The position numbers were made by a program, and so were the translations under genes. Positions 13,522 to 62,304 of a stretch of 64,000 bases of DNA are shown piece by piece. Source of the DNA: Opitutia bacterium. Lineage in GTDB: Bacteria; Verrucomicrobiota; Verrucomicrobiia; Opitutales; UBA953. The first letter of the stretch is position 1; each line of letters starts with the position of its first letter. The notes under the pieces are model-generated. The model had not been told where the DNA came from. It ran no database searches and saw only the letters and a program-made list of their open reading frames with translations. Location: assembly GCA_947377865.1 (NCBI GenBank), contig CANCHK010000002.1, positions 1 to 64,000 of the forward strand, written 5' to 3'.

Positions 13522-14619
13522 ATGTCCCAACGGCCCCTTGGTTTCGGCATCTGGGGAACCGGCATGATTGCCGAGTTCCACGCTAAGGCACTCGCCGAAA
13601 TCGCCGGCGTGAAGCTCGTCGCGGCGTACAACCGTTCGCCGGCCAAGGGACGCGACTTCGCGGCCAAACACGGAATGGCCTTCGCTGAGACACCTGAGGC
13701 ACTCCTCGCTAATCCCGCTGTCGATATCGTCTGCCTCTGCACGCCCAGCGGCGACCACCTCGCCCCTGCCCTCGCCTGCGCCCAGGCCGGCAAGCACGTC
13801 GTGGTCGAGAAACCCCTTGAAGTCACCCTCGCCCGTTGCGACGCACTCAACGCCGCCTGCGCTAAGGCCGGCGTCACCGTCGCCGGTATTTTGCCCCGCC
13901 GTTTCGGAGCCGGCGCGGTCGCCCTTAAGGCGGCGCTCGACGCGGGTCGCTTCGGCCAGCTCACGCTCGCCGGCGCCCTCATCCCCTGGTGGCGCACGCA
14001 GGCCTATTATGATTCTGCGGCCTGGCGCGGCACGTTCGCCCTCGATGGCGGCGGTGCCGTCATGAATCAAGGTATCCATACAATCGACCTGCTGCTCTGG
14101 TTCCTCGGCGCGCCCAAGCGCGTCTCCGCCACGGCGGGCCTCGTCGCCCACGATGGCATCGAAGTCGAGGATATCGCCGCCGGTTGGATCGAGTTCGCCA
14201 ACGGCTGCCGCGCCACGCTCGCCAGCTCGACCGCCTGTTGGTCCACCACGGGCTTTCCCGCCGAGATCCGCATCCACGGCACGACCGGCGCCGCCGTGCT
14301 GCGCGACGACAAACTGACCGCCTTCGAATTCGAAAAGCCCCTACCCTCCGACGCGTCCGTCCTCACCCCGGCTACCGAAGGCGGCGGTGCGGGCGCCAAT
14401 GACCCCAAGGCCATCGGCCATGCGTGGCACCGCTCCAACCTCGAAGAAGCCATCGCTGCGATCCGCGCGGGCAAGCAGCCGGCCGTCAACGGCGCCGAAG
14501 GCCGCAAGGCTGTCGAGCTCATCCTCGCGCTGTATCAGTCGGCGCAGGCCGGCGGAGCGCCGATCGATCTACCCTTAGCCCGAGACCCTGACTTGCGTGC
14601 GTTGGGTAAGAAAAGTTGA
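13522..14619 (+). CDS. Gfo/Idh/MocA family oxidoreductase
   Basis: GFGIWGTGMIAEFHAKALAEIAGVKLVAAYNRSPAKGRDFA; AGKHVVVEKPLEVTLARCDAL; stop TGA lies in the first octamer of the repeat array. Confidence 0.9.
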   Translation: MSQRPLGFGIWGTGMIAEFHAKALAEIAGVKLVAAYNRSPAKGRDFAAKHGMAFAETPEALLANPAVDIVCLCTPSGDHLAPALACAQAGKHVVVEKPLEVTLARCDALNAACAKAGVTVAGILPRRFGAGAVALKAALDAGRFGQLTLAGALIPWWRTQAYYDSAAWRGTFALDGGGAVMNQGIHTIDLLLWFLGAPKRVSATAGLVAHDGIEVEDIAAGWIEFANGCRATLASSTACWSTTGFPAEIRIHGTTGAAVLRDDKLTAFEFEKPLPSDASVLTPATEGGGAGANDPKAIGHAWHRSNLEEAIAAIRAGKQPAVNGAEGRKAVELILALYQSAQAGGAPIDLPLARDPDLRALGKKS

Positions 14620-14658
14620 CCAGTTGAACGGTTGGCCAGTTGGCCAGAGAGGGGAAGG
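14615..14658 (+). repeat. Octamer array, left inverted terminus of 4HB element 1
   Basis: GTTGACCA GTTGAACG GTTGGCCA GTTGGCCA GAGAGGGGAAGG. Confidence 0.85.
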
Positions 14659-14747
14659 CACCTAGGGACTAAGGAGTGGGCAGAGTGAAGCTAAAGTCCT
14701 CAGCGTTGTTTTCGTGAGAACCTGAGAGTTCGCCAGATAATCGGGGA

Positions 14748-15153
14748 ATGGAAAAACCACAGACTACCAACACCGAGCCTTTCACCTTCCGAGACCTGAT
14801 GGTCTGGAAGCAGTCGCGGGCTCTCGCTTCTGATATCTACCGGATGGCTGCTACGCCGAATCTGCGAAGCCATTATGCCTATTGCGACCAACTCGGACGC
14901 GCTGCTTTATCCGTTCCCTCGAATATCGCCGAAGGCAACGACCGCGGGACCAACAAGGAGTCGCTGAGGTTCTTGCTTATCGCGCGGGGGCTCATTAAGT
15001 GAACTGGAGACTCTGCTTTGGATAGGGCACGATCTCGGCTGGATTGAGACCGCGGAGTATCAAAGGCTATCGGAAAGGAGAGCTGAAGTAGCGAGGTTGC
15101 TCGGTGGCCTCATCCGCATGCGACAACAGCGCCTAAGGTCATCCGAATCCTAA
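14748..15153 (+). pseudogene. Four-helix-bundle protein (23S rRNA-IVS/S23-type), frameshifted in a G5 run
   Basis: MEKPQTTNTEPFTFRDLMVWKQSRALASDIYRMA...RAALSVPSNIAEGNDRGTNKESLRFLLIARG then stop; removing one G at 14986-14990 restores GSLSELETLLWIGHDLGWIETAEYQRLSERRAEVARLLGGLIRMRQQRLRSSES*. Confidence 0.85.
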
Positions 15154-15198
15154 CTTACGCTCCCACCAAGGACTCACCCTCGTCGGCCTCCGACCCAC

Positions 15199-15322
15199 TG
15201 ATCAACTAGTCAACAGTTCAACTAACCCTGTATCACTCTGGCCAACCATTCAACCGATCAACGAATTAACTCACTTTGCCTCTCTCTGGCCAACAGGCCA
15301 ACTGTTCAACCGATCAACTAAT
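15199..15322 (-). repeat. Octamer arrays, right inverted terminus of 4HB element 1
   Basis: Reverse complement: TTA GTTGATCG GTTGAACA GTTGGCCT GTTGGCCA GAGAGAGG ... GTTAATTC GTTGATCG GTTGAATG GTTGGCCA GAG ... GTTGAACT GTTGACTA GTTGATCA. Confidence 0.85.
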
Positions 15323-15917
15323 TCTTAGTGTTGCCCCTAAACTCCTCCATCGTCTTCCCTTCGCCGGCGTTAATCCCGCTCCTGGCGAAGACCTTGAAGA
15401 AGGTTCGCACGACAATCTTCATGTCGAGCCAGGTGGAGCGGTGGTCGACATACCAGACGTCGAGGGCGAACTTCTCCTCCCAGCTGAGGGCGTTGCGGCC
15501 GTTGACCTGCGCCCAGCCGGTGACGCCGGGCTTCACTTCCATGCGTCGCGCCTGGAAGGGGCTATAGCGCGTCAGGTAGCGCATGAGGAGCGGACGCGGG
15601 CCGACGACGCTCATGTCGCCCAGGAGGACGTTCCACATCTCGGGAAATTCGTCGAGCGTGGTGGACCGGAGGAACTTGCCGAATGGCGTGAGGCGCACGG
15701 AGTCCGGCAGCAGTTCGCCGTCCGGGCCACGCTCATCGGTCATGGTGCGGAACTTGACCATGCGGAAAGGTCGGCCGAGGTAGCCCGGGCGTTCCTGAAC
15801 GAACAGGACCGGCGATCCGAGCTTTAGGCGGACGAGGAGCGCGACAGCGAGCAGGAGCGGGGCAAAGCCGACGAGCCAGCAGGCCGAGAAGACGATATCG
15901 AAGGCGCGCTTGCTCAT
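15318..15917 (-). CDS. Polyprenyl-phosphate sugar-1-phosphate transferase (PglC-like small PGT)
   Basis: KRAFDIVFSACWLVGFAPLLLAVALLVRLKLGSPVLFVQERPGYLGRPFRMVKFRTM; LRSTTLDEFPEMWNVLLGDMSVVGPRPL; KPGVTGWAQVNGRN. Confidence 0.93.
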   Translation of the reverse strand: MSKRAFDIVFSACWLVGFAPLLLAVALLVRLKLGSPVLFVQERPGYLGRPFRMVKFRTMTDERGPDGELLPDSVRLTPFGKFLRSTTLDEFPEMWNVLLGDMSVVGPRPLLMRYLTRYSPFQARRMEVKPGVTGWAQVNGRNALSWEEKFALDVWYVDHRSTWLDMKIVVRTFFKVFARSGINAGEGKTMEEFRGNTKN

Positions 15918-18284: not shown

Positions 18285-18311
18285 CGAATGGAGGGACGGG
18301 GGAGATAGCGA

Positions 18312-44143: not shown

Positions 44144-44165
44144 TTTGAATGGTGCTAAAGTTTTG

Positions 44166-44247
44166 GGTGACGGGTGACAGCCCCCGGGGCATCGGCATTT
44201 CAGGTTTCGGCTATTCGGCCCTCGGCAATCAGGCTTCGGCCATCAGC
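44166..44247 (+). repeat. Heptamer array, left inverted terminus of 4HB element 2
   Basis: GGTGACG GGTGACA GCCCCCG GGGCATC GGCATTTC AGGTTTC GGCTATTC GGCCCTC GGCAATC AGGCTTC GGCCATC. Confidence 0.75.
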
Positions 44248-44303
44248 GGTGCACGTGTCTGAGTGGTGTTAACTTATCAGGGGTTGAGCCTTAGAGGTCT
44301 ACG

Positions 44304-44714
44304 ATGGATTTGGTGGCTAATCTTAAAATAATTACTGGGATGAATAAGCTTTTCCAGCCGCTGCGCGTACTCGAATTAGCTAAACAAACTGCGGAGGATG
44401 TTTACCTGCTAACAGGCGATCGGAGATTCGAACGTGAATCTACCTTAAAGAACCAGTTGCGACGTGCTGTGTTATCCGTGCCTAGCAACATAGCCGAAGG
44501 AGAGGGACGCCGATACTCCCAGGAAGGCATTCGCTTCTTTAAAATCGCCATCGCTTCAGCAGAGGAGGCGAAAATTCAGCTGTCTTTAGGCACACGAATT
44601 GGCATAGTGCCTCTGGATAAAGCCAATAAAGCGATTGGCGACCTATCGTCGGTCTGTCGGATGTTGAACAAGCTCATATTTAGTCGAACTTCTCGCGGCA
44701 CGAAACTCGAGTGA
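44304..44714 (+). CDS. Four-helix-bundle protein (S23/IVS type), intact
   Basis: FQPLRVLELAKQTAEDVYLLTGDRRFERESTLKNQLRRAVLSVPSNIAEGEGRRYSQEGIRFFKIAIASAEEAKIQLSLGTRIG. Confidence 0.88.
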   Translation: MDLVANLKIITGMNKLFQPLRVLELAKQTAEDVYLLTGDRRFERESTLKNQLRRAVLSVPSNIAEGEGRRYSQEGIRFFKIAIASAEEAKIQLSLGTRIGIVPLDKANKAIGDLSSVCRMLNKLIFSRTSRGTKLE

Positions 44715-44797
44715 ACCCGATGGCCGAAGCCTGATACCCGAAGGCCGAATCGCTGGCTCCCGGATGGCCGACTTCCCGGTGGCCGTCACCCGTCACC
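44714..44797 (-). repeat. Heptamer array, right inverted terminus of 4HB element 2
   Basis: Reverse complement GGTGACG GGTGACG GCCACCG GGAAGTC GGCCATC ... GGCCTTC GGGTATC AGGCTTC GGCCATC GGG. Confidence 0.75.
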
Positions 44798-44847
44798 TGT
44801 ATCAGAGACTTTGCTTTTTTTACTCCCACCCGCCAACACCTTACATT

Positions 44848-44890
44848 TACACTTTTGCACAAGCCACAGGCTGGTTGCACTTTTGCACTT
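44848..44890 (+). repeat. Partial TTTGCAC element (copy 3)
   Basis: acttttgcacaagccacaggctggttgcacttttgcac, similar to 172-217 and 62261-62304. Confidence 0.7.
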
Positions 44891-56773: not shown

Positions 56774-57204
56774 TTTAGGGGATAAGCTGGCACGGGGGCA
56801 CGGGGACAAGGGGAGATGAAGTTGATCGGTTGATCGGTTGGCTAGTTGGCCGGGCGGGAACACTAGCTGGCAGGTTGACAAGTGGACCAGTGGACAAGGG
56901 AGCCGGTGGCTTAACTCAAAGGGAAACCGGAGACCGGATAATTGGCTGGGGGCCTATTAGGTAGGGCGGGCTCTCCGAGCCCGTCGAGCGGACGGTTCGG
57001 AGAACCGTCTCTATCCACTACAGCCGCGAGAGGCTGGAGCCGGCTGCCGATGGCTGAACGGCTGACTCCCGAAAGGCCGATGCCCTGGTGGCCGTCACCT
57101 GTCACCCTAAAGAATAATGCCGCAGCATACTATCCGGTTTCCGGTCTCCCCTTGAGCGATACATCTCTCTGGCCAACCAGCCAACCAATCAACGGGTCAA
57201 CTAC
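56774..57204. repeat. Composite non-coding element: start-proximal octamers, octamer array, REP pair, heptamer array, inverted octamer array
   Basis: GTTGATCG GTTGATCG GTTGGCTA GTTGGCCG (56821) ... GGTAGGGCGGGCTCTCCGAGCCCG..GACGGTTCGGAGAACCGTC (56960-57016) ... reverse complement GTTGACCC GTTGATTG GTTGGCTG GTTGGCCA GAG (57168-57204). Confidence 0.85.
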
Positions 57205-57497
57205 CTGCTGGTCACTTCCACGATATACTCTGCGAGCAGATCAACGCGACGGAAGGGAGAGGTGAGGCGGCTCATGGCCTTCTCGTCGGCCAAGGTAACG
57301 GTCTTGCCGGTGGCGATCCGGATATCTTCCTCAAGGTCGGCAATCAGCGTGACAAGGCCGATGCTATCCAGCGCCGCCGTTTCGCCGAAAAGGCGAGTCT
57401 GCCCATCGGCCTGCTCCAAGGCAGGCTTGCCGAGTTCACGGCCGAGGGCCGCTAGGCGACGCAGGACGAGCGCCAAAGATTGTTCAGATGAAATCAT
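57201..57497 (-). CDS. Acyl carrier protein-like
   Basis: TRLFGETAALDSIGLVTLIADLEEDIRIATGKTV; stop TAG coincides with the octamer array edge. Confidence 0.75.
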   Translation of the reverse strand: MISSEQSLALVLRRLAALGRELGKPALEQADGQTRLFGETAALDSIGLVTLIADLEEDIRIATGKTVTLADEKAMSRLTSPFRRVDLLAEYIVEVTSR

Positions 57498-60377: not shown

Positions 60378-60700
60378 TTTAGGGGGCAAGCTGGCACGTG
60401 GGCACGTGGACAAGGGGAGAGGCTGGGTTGATCAGTTGATTGGTTGGCCAGCTGGCCAGAGGGGGACACTAGCTGGCAGGTTGACAAGTTGACCAGTGGG
60501 CAAGGGAGGCAGCGGGCTTAACTCAAGGGAAACCGGAGGATTGGCCGGGGATTGGTAGGGCGGGCTCTCCGAGCCCGCCGAACGGACGGTTCAGAGAACC
60601 GTCCCTACCCGTTGTGTCCCTTGCCAACTTGCCAACCGATCAACGAATCAACTAGCGATGCATCTCTCTGGTCAACCGAGCCTCTGGGCCTCCGGCCCTC
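60378..60700. repeat. Composite non-coding element, second copy
   Basis: Start-proximal octamers 60378-60417; GTTGATCA GTTGATTG GTTGGCCA GCTGGCCA GAG (60426); REP pair 60553-60609; reverse-complement GTTGATTC GTTGATCG GTTGGCAA GTTGGCAA GGG (about 60618-60653). Confidence 0.85.
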
Positions 60701-61858: not shown

Positions 61859-62058
61859 TTTAGGGGGCAGGCTGGCACGTGGGCACGTGGGCAAGGGGGG
61901 TAGCGGGGGGAAACCGGAGATCGGGTGATTGGCTTGAGGTAGAGACGCGTCGGTGACGCGTCCGTCTATTCTACTGCGGTCGCGACACCGTCGCGCCCCT
62001 ACCTCGATCTATTCCTTGTCAACCTGCCAACTGGTCAACGGGTCAACAGGTCAACTAA
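61859..62058. repeat. Composite element: start-proximal octamers, REP pair, inverted octamer array
   Basis: 61859-61899 CKTGYCCA class; hairpins 61938-62003; reverse complement GTTGACCT GTTGACCC GTTGACCA GTTGGCAG GTTGACAA GG (62014-62058). Confidence 0.8.
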
Positions 62059-62086
62059 CGTGCTTTTGTGGCTTCGCTGAGATGCC

Positions 62087-62304
62087 GTGCAAAGGTGCAA
62101 AGGTGAATTTAGGGGTAGGGGTTGGGGTAGGGGCTGGAGAACATCCCAAATGCAGGTCTCGGACCTAAGCTTCTGTTCTCTGGGCTTGTTCGCGTAGATG
62201 CGAGTGGTGATTTTGCAGGCCGACCCCTGCCCCAGCCCCTACCACAATCTTTGGAAATACATTTGCACCTTTGCACAAGCCGAAGGCGGGTTGCACTTTT
62301 GCAC
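62087..62304. repeat. G-tract/C-tract inverted repeat element with TTTGCAC octamers (copy 2)
   Basis: gtgcaaaggtgcaaagg..aggggtaggggttggggtaggggctgg ... gacccctgccccagcccctacc..tttgcacctttgcac. Confidence 0.8.

Follow-up and report, generated by a model that had tools for sequence, protein, structure and literature searches.

What is a short gene for a four-helix-bundle (4HB) protein doing between the genes for a LegC-type aminotransferase and an asparagine synthase, both of which lie on the other DNA strand, and why is it enclosed by tandem oligomer arrays in inverted orientation? The locus, which we call element 2, lies in a 64-kb stretch of bacterial DNA that was analysed as a whole (the window). 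We favour the explanation, at a probability of roughly 0.6 for all of its parts together, that element 2 is a mobile element of about 632 bp with the 4HB protein as its sole gene, that its array termini are read as DNA by that protein, and that catalysis is provided in trans; the binding and the catalysis are parts that we infer. The design itself is real, widespread and clade-specific, and it behaves like a mobile element.

A 4HB gene between inverted heptamer arrays

The 5' terminal array of element 2 (44166..44244, plus strand) is made up of eleven TCGGGTN-type heptamers and has the outer end GGTGACGGGTGACAGCC; the 3' terminal array (44719..44797, minus strand) is the 5' array inverted, in heptamer register, with the outer end GGTGACGGGTGACGGCC. 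The two arms align without gaps as eleven heptamers, with 62 of 79 positions identical (78% complementary). Read from the outside inward, the left arm runs GGTGACG GGTGACA GCCCCCG GGGCATC ... TCAGGCT TCGGCCA and the right arm GGTGACG GGTGACG GCCACCG GGAAGTC ... TCAGGCT TCGGCCA. A preliminary description of this DNA had placed inverted arrays of about 82 bp around an intact 4HB open reading frame (ORF), with outer 17-mers that match at 16 of 17 positions. The arrays, their inversion, the intact ORF and the 16/17 match all stand, while the length is corrected to 79 nt. That the arrays are not a product of chance is supported by an inverted-repeat (IR) score of 45: 1000 dinucleotide shuffles gave 10.8 +/- 1.4 and at most 19, and the highest score among 388 other centres of the window was 20. 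The proposed period of 7 is likewise evident, in that lag-7 self-identity is 0.49 and 0.51 in the two arms versus 0.26-0.28 after shuffling, a level reached by 0/1000 shuffles, and the adjoining periods had no significance at 0.05 in the same comparison.

The ORF (44304..44714, plus strand) is intact and encodes a protein of 136 aa with a pI of 10.0, in which Q51, R54, S58, N62, E65 and E88 are conserved. It matches PF05635 with an E value of 4.7e-24 and lies well above the curated cut-offs of both PF05635 (85.1 vs 33.8 bits) and TIGR02436 (85.9 vs 24 bits). The AlphaFold model is a confident helical bundle (pLDDT 90.5), and the predicted fold resembles the S23p structures 2GSC, which is the best PDB match, and 2RLD; membership of the S23p/4HB family is thus indicated by the bit scores and by the predicted four-helix fold. 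A Pfam search with this sole ORF of element 2 returned PF05635 only, and no DDE, HUH, serine or tyrosine recombinase. The GC content of the ORF is 0.477, compared with 0.60-0.61 in the neighbouring genes, in agreement with the low GC and opposite strand previously ascribed to it. Directly to the right of element 2 lies a non-coding octamer array, GTGCAAAA, with a hairpin (44843..44890, minus strand); it belongs to another 4HB family, as one of its short copies.

The window contains a second such locus, element 1 (approximately 14614-15325), in which a 5' array of GTTGACCA octamers (14614..14647, plus strand) precedes a 4HB ORF (14748..15153, plus strand) whose frame is broken by a frameshift near 14990, and inverted octamer arrays follow on the 3' side (15200..15325, minus strand). 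Its arms have an IR score of 33 and are unrelated to those of element 2, consistent with the earlier assertion that two unrelated oligomer families, here octamers and heptamers, form the inverted termini of one protein family. Related species have either nothing at the site of element 1 or an insert there, in one orientation or the other.

Arms and array units of other 4HB genes

Other 4HB genes had been predicted to carry flanking inverted repeats, and this proved to be so in three sets of loci, against about 2% of controls. With an IR score of at least 20 as the threshold, inverted arms were found at 73 of the 90 4HB loci of the genus and order that have enough flank, and at 2.0% of 733 control centres from the same loci, with median scores of 29 and 13, respectively. 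They were also present at 21/29 further 4HB loci of the phylum and at 45/86 loci of generic 4HB genes in named genomes (Bacteroidota, Nitrospirota, Deltaproteobacteria, Planctomycetota, KSB1, Calditrichota, Levybacteria and Nitrotoga), two sets that share their controls (1.6% of 1448), as well as at several S23p genes on cyanobacterial plasmids and one gene on a Riemerella plasmid. At some 4HB genes the arms are weak or absent. Same-period arrays in both flanks, a criterion that is independent of the IR score and too strict for the main test, occurred at 23/115 loci versus 5/817 controls. On the Nostoc edaphicum plasmid pNe_5 (L304), a 4HB gene with TAGGGAG arrays lies between the genes for both ribonucleotide reductase subunits, on the opposite strand. 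Carriage of 4HB genes by phages is rejected, as tblastn gave no match among 50,697 phage records.

One possible explanation for inverted arms is that they form an RNA stem, as in the intervening sequences (IVSs) of 23S rRNA, and that the transcript is the unit under selection. In support of this, the Coxiella 23S IVS combines an S23p ORF with terminal inverted repeats and three to four tandem copies of GACAGAT, the number of which varies between strains; no function has been assigned to this IVS, and it has been suggested to derive from a transposon or mobile element (PMC4990558). The Coxiella IVS fits the pattern of the 4HB arrays, and the IVSs of Leptospira and Coxiella share with the 4HB elements the protein family and the inverted terminal repeats. 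However, G-U and A-C mismatches between the arms are equally common in the genus set (175 vs 182), and elsewhere A-C is the commoner (117 vs 160). Because the mismatches have no G-U wobble bias, the arms are not kept as an RNA stem, and we reject selection on such a stem. The 4HB elements further differ from 23S IVSs in that they are intergenic, between protein genes and outside rRNA, carry arrays in both arms, and comprise many families within a genome, including short copies. Element 2 itself, located between the aminotransferase and asparagine synthase genes and not in a 23S/16S rRNA helix, from which an IVS is cut out by RNase III, is rejected as a 23S IVS. Altogether, we consider an RNA element unlikely.

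The favoured reading, that the arrays are DNA ends belonging to the 4HB gene, draws on the relationship between array unit and protein. Unit length ranges from 6 to 12 nt across 4HB elements: the 6-nt unit is AGGGNT, the 7-nt units are GAGTANN, GCGGTTN, TCGGGTN and GGCTGTA, the 8-nt units are GTGACACG, GTTGACNN, GTGCAAAG and AAAGGCAC, and further units have 11 and 12 nt. The G-rich strand points inward in 131/137 elements. On the protein tree, the 12 unit types are explained by 12 changes (the minimum being 11), while shuffled labels require at least 49; the unit families were named by eye from the arms, prior to the tree. An automated Mantel test on 11,795 element pairs without shared flanking DNA gave r 0.32, which 0/500 permutations reached. 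The AAAGGCAC unit accompanies 4HB proteins of approximately 60% identity in several phyla. A comparison of self and cross arm similarity inside one family is confounded by copies that occupy the same site in opposite orientation. The array unit therefore tracks the protein, in a manner that may be likened to transposon ends tracking their transposase, and it is mainly because the unit goes with the protein clade that we propose recognition of the array by the 4HB protein.

Arrays also occur away from 4HB genes. The GTGCAAARGTGCAAA pattern has 0-102 occurrences per genome of the genus and its reversed control pattern zero, and the median number of GTGCAAAG arrays is 46 in genomes with the cognate 4HB clade versus 23 in those without (p=0.006; p = 0.0013 with three probable carriers included). 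A strict scan for periods 7 and 8 found almost no arrays in fixed stretches of the 4HB-free genome G064 or of other genomes, and so does not distinguish between them.

Occupied and empty sites, full and short copies

Upstream of the LegC-type aminotransferase gene, where element 2 lies in the window, some related species have no insert (L111-L113, L121, L122); others carry arrays alone (L110), or 4HB genes that belong to different families and have different units. The site beside the nth gene is similarly variable, being empty, occupied by a non-coding inverted array of 150-200 nt, or filled by a 4HB element in either orientation. Copies of one element also occur at unrelated sites in a single genome, as described below, and together these findings uphold the earlier proposal of an element with the 4HB gene at its core and the inverted arrays as its ends, over a 4HB locus inherited vertically. 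Elements at the nth site (L144-L160) reach right up to the stop codons of the convergent genes on both sides, which may mean that stop codons are provided or maintained by the element ends (TAG...CTA).

Within the family of element 2, full copies measure 632-636 bp and short copies that lack the ORF 111, 141 and 158 bp, and all of them, full and short, terminate in GGTGACGGGTGACGGCC or close variants; ends common to full and miniature copies, a feature of insertion sequences (IS) and MITEs, are therefore present here as the same 17-mer. A further copy of this 17-mer in the window, with one mismatch (57090..57106, minus strand), ends a heptamer array that begins at approximately 57047 and has no ORF. 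The 158-bp copy in genome G034 (L088) is exactly adjoined on both sides by an 8-bp direct repeat, ATGTTGCT, for which the probability of a chance occurrence is 4.5e-5 per site. The window provides the orthologous empty site in the intergenic stretch from the aminotransferase start to element 2 (44144..44165), where one ATGNTGCT copy, a single copy of the duplicated sequence, is found without an insert. A clear target duplication was seen at one of seven delimited insertions (L088) and at none of the other six, perhaps as a result of their age. Element 2 is one of the six; the earlier suggestion to look for target-site duplications and empty sites at 4HB genes thus gave a duplication with its empty site at L088 and no clear duplication at element 2. 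Most junctions, including those of the nth and element 1 sites, cannot be read, as intergenic sequence is too diverged between species.

In an Opitutales MAG (G042; L221), two copies of a 4HB element that are 93% identical lie in unrelated flanks, and their similarity stops at the AAAGGCAC arrays. The same genome has about 15 further copies in which the 5' array is retained together with 41-123 nt of the sequence that follows it, mostly 41-59, and the far array is missing in nearly all. These one-ended copies (L330-L349) share a few common junctions, at 41, 43, 48 and 51 nt past the array, and in several of them the junction is followed by another octamer-like array, CGCCAAGACCGCTAAGA. The shared junctions and the CGCCAAGACCGCTAAGA arrays hint at chained copying between element families; alternatively, the one-ended copies could have arisen through decay of full ones.

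Could these loci instead be resident, with binding sites that grew by slippage and are mostly inherited vertically, and with a 4HB protein that regulates its own gene or terminates convergent transcription? Many 4HB genes do lie at shared syntenic sites, and often they directly adjoin stop codons of genes that converge on them. Such a history is nonetheless improbable given that one and the same site is empty or holds different families and orientations across relatives, that a genome can carry copies at unrelated sites, that short copies have identical ends, and that a target duplication exists.

A second possibility is that the arrays and hairpins are moved by a Y1 (HUH) transposase, as in REP/RAYT systems, and that the 4HB gene hitchhikes. 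The short copies are REP- or BIME-like, and Y1 matches occur in 34/55 genomes of the genus. More generally, REP sequences with TnpA-REP (RAYT) proteins, and BIMEs, resemble the 4HB elements as high-copy intergenic units of arrays and hairpins that are tied to one cognate protein, whose gene lies between inverted copies of these units. The 4HB elements, in contrast, have tandem oligomer arrays as ends and encode no Y1/HUH protein; between the arms of element 2 there is no Y1 gene, the 4HB ORF being alone there. The array unit follows the 4HB clade, and genome G019, which is 99% complete, contains a 4HB gene and 23 arrays yet no Y1 match. The Y1 genes of the genus own GGGGTCAGACCG inverted ends that differ from the arrays, and we reject Y1/RAYT as the mover on this ground; overall, we see little likelihood in this explanation. 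The RAYT-like Y1 transposases with GGGGTCAGACCG inverted flanks (L319, L320, L324 and L325) are an independent REP system.

Movement by reverse transcription was a further consideration, with the 4HB protein acting like Avd, the accessory protein of diversity-generating retroelements (DGRs), and a reverse transcriptase acting in trans. The ends made of tandem repeats and the truncated copies are reminiscent of target-primed reverse transcription, and the far ends of the one-ended G042 copies are variable. A homology or resemblance of PF05635 to Avd has been noted (PMC10053308), and the predicted fold of element 2 matches Avd 4DWL together with chains of the DGR RNP (TM 0.60-0.69), although more weakly than the S23p structures (for 4DWL, TM 0.66-0.69, rmsd of about 2 and a Foldseek E of about 0.1-0.25). 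Unlike Avd, the element 2 protein has no adjacent reverse transcriptase, and most of these genomes have none at all: PF00078 is absent from 54/55 genomes of the genus, from G042, and from the closed genomes G172, which has eight PF05635 matches, and G090. Since these genomes lack it, the elements do not require a resident reverse transcriptase, and we reject one; retro-mobilisation as such appears very improbable.

Proposed mechanism and relation to known systems

Under the mobile-element reading, the basic 4HB protein, which probably assembles into a ring like that of 2GSC, would bind the units of its own array as DNA. Array-bound protein would then synapse and pair the ends, or mark them, and so direct copying or insertion, while cutting and copying would be carried out by another enzyme in trans, probably derived from the host. 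Catalysis in trans is proposed because no nuclease or recombinase can be recognised in the 4HB fold. Copying may start at the array, a suggestion made because copies keep only one array.

Among known systems, MITEs and their parent insertion sequences offer a close parallel, with a 632-bp parent, miniatures of 111-158 bp that have common ends, and an 8-bp target duplication at one of seven delimited insertions; the differences are that the 4HB parent encodes no known transposase and that its ends are subfamily-specific short tandem arrays. Element 2 lacks a defining feature of each of IS, REP/RAYT, IVS and DGR, and we regard it as a new kind of element. In the literature covered, from which subscription journals and bioRxiv are largely missing so that novelty is unproven, no paper links 4HB genes generally to inverted tandem arrays.

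Short tandem heptamers have been described elsewhere. GGGAATC arrays in Xanthomonas, which often form inverted pairs (a single genome has 70 such pairs), and GGGGA(C/T)T arrays in Nostoc are unexplained and have not been tied to mobile elements (PMC4692102), and the TAACTGA heptamers of Beggiatoaceae are also unexplained (PMC4679880). They resemble the 4HB arrays as tandem 7-mers; neither paper mentions a 4HB/S23p gene (PMC4692102, PMC4679880). GGGAATC-type arms flank the 4HB gene L214. The cyanobacterial STRR heptamers may belong with the 4HB arrays too.

A broader proposal, to which we give somewhat less than even odds, is that a widespread class of bacterial mobile elements uses a 4HB protein of about 120 aa, without a known catalytic domain and perhaps with a new strand-transfer activity, to read clade-specific tandem arrays of 6-12-nt units as DNA ends, and that 23S rRNA IVSs, as well as the orphan heptamers of cyanobacteria, xanthomonads and others, would be accounted for in this way. 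Many bacterial genomes have annotated S23p/4HB genes to which no function is assigned. Should the arrays prove to be the ends of 4HB elements, this puzzle and those of the heptamers in Xanthomonas, Nostoc, Beggiatoaceae and the Coxiella IVS would merge into one, and clades that read different short words would provide a set of natural protein-DNA pairs on which specificity, synapsis and the missing catalytic step can be tested directly.

Several further arrays occur in the window. AGGGGT-type hexamer arrays, the unit of the p6 4HB clade, form inverted pairs without a 4HB gene at 15-252 and 62018-62137, with GTGCAAAG octamers interspersed. At 56780-57220 and 60390-60660, nested arrays of GGCACGGG, GTTGATCG and GGTTGACAAGTGGACC surround palindromes bounded by GGTAGGG and are apparently short elements inserted in each other. 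A GGTAGGG-palindrome-CCCTACC hairpin recurs at 18310, 18565, 56950, 60545 and 61950, and these hairpins may constitute a REP-like family of their own.
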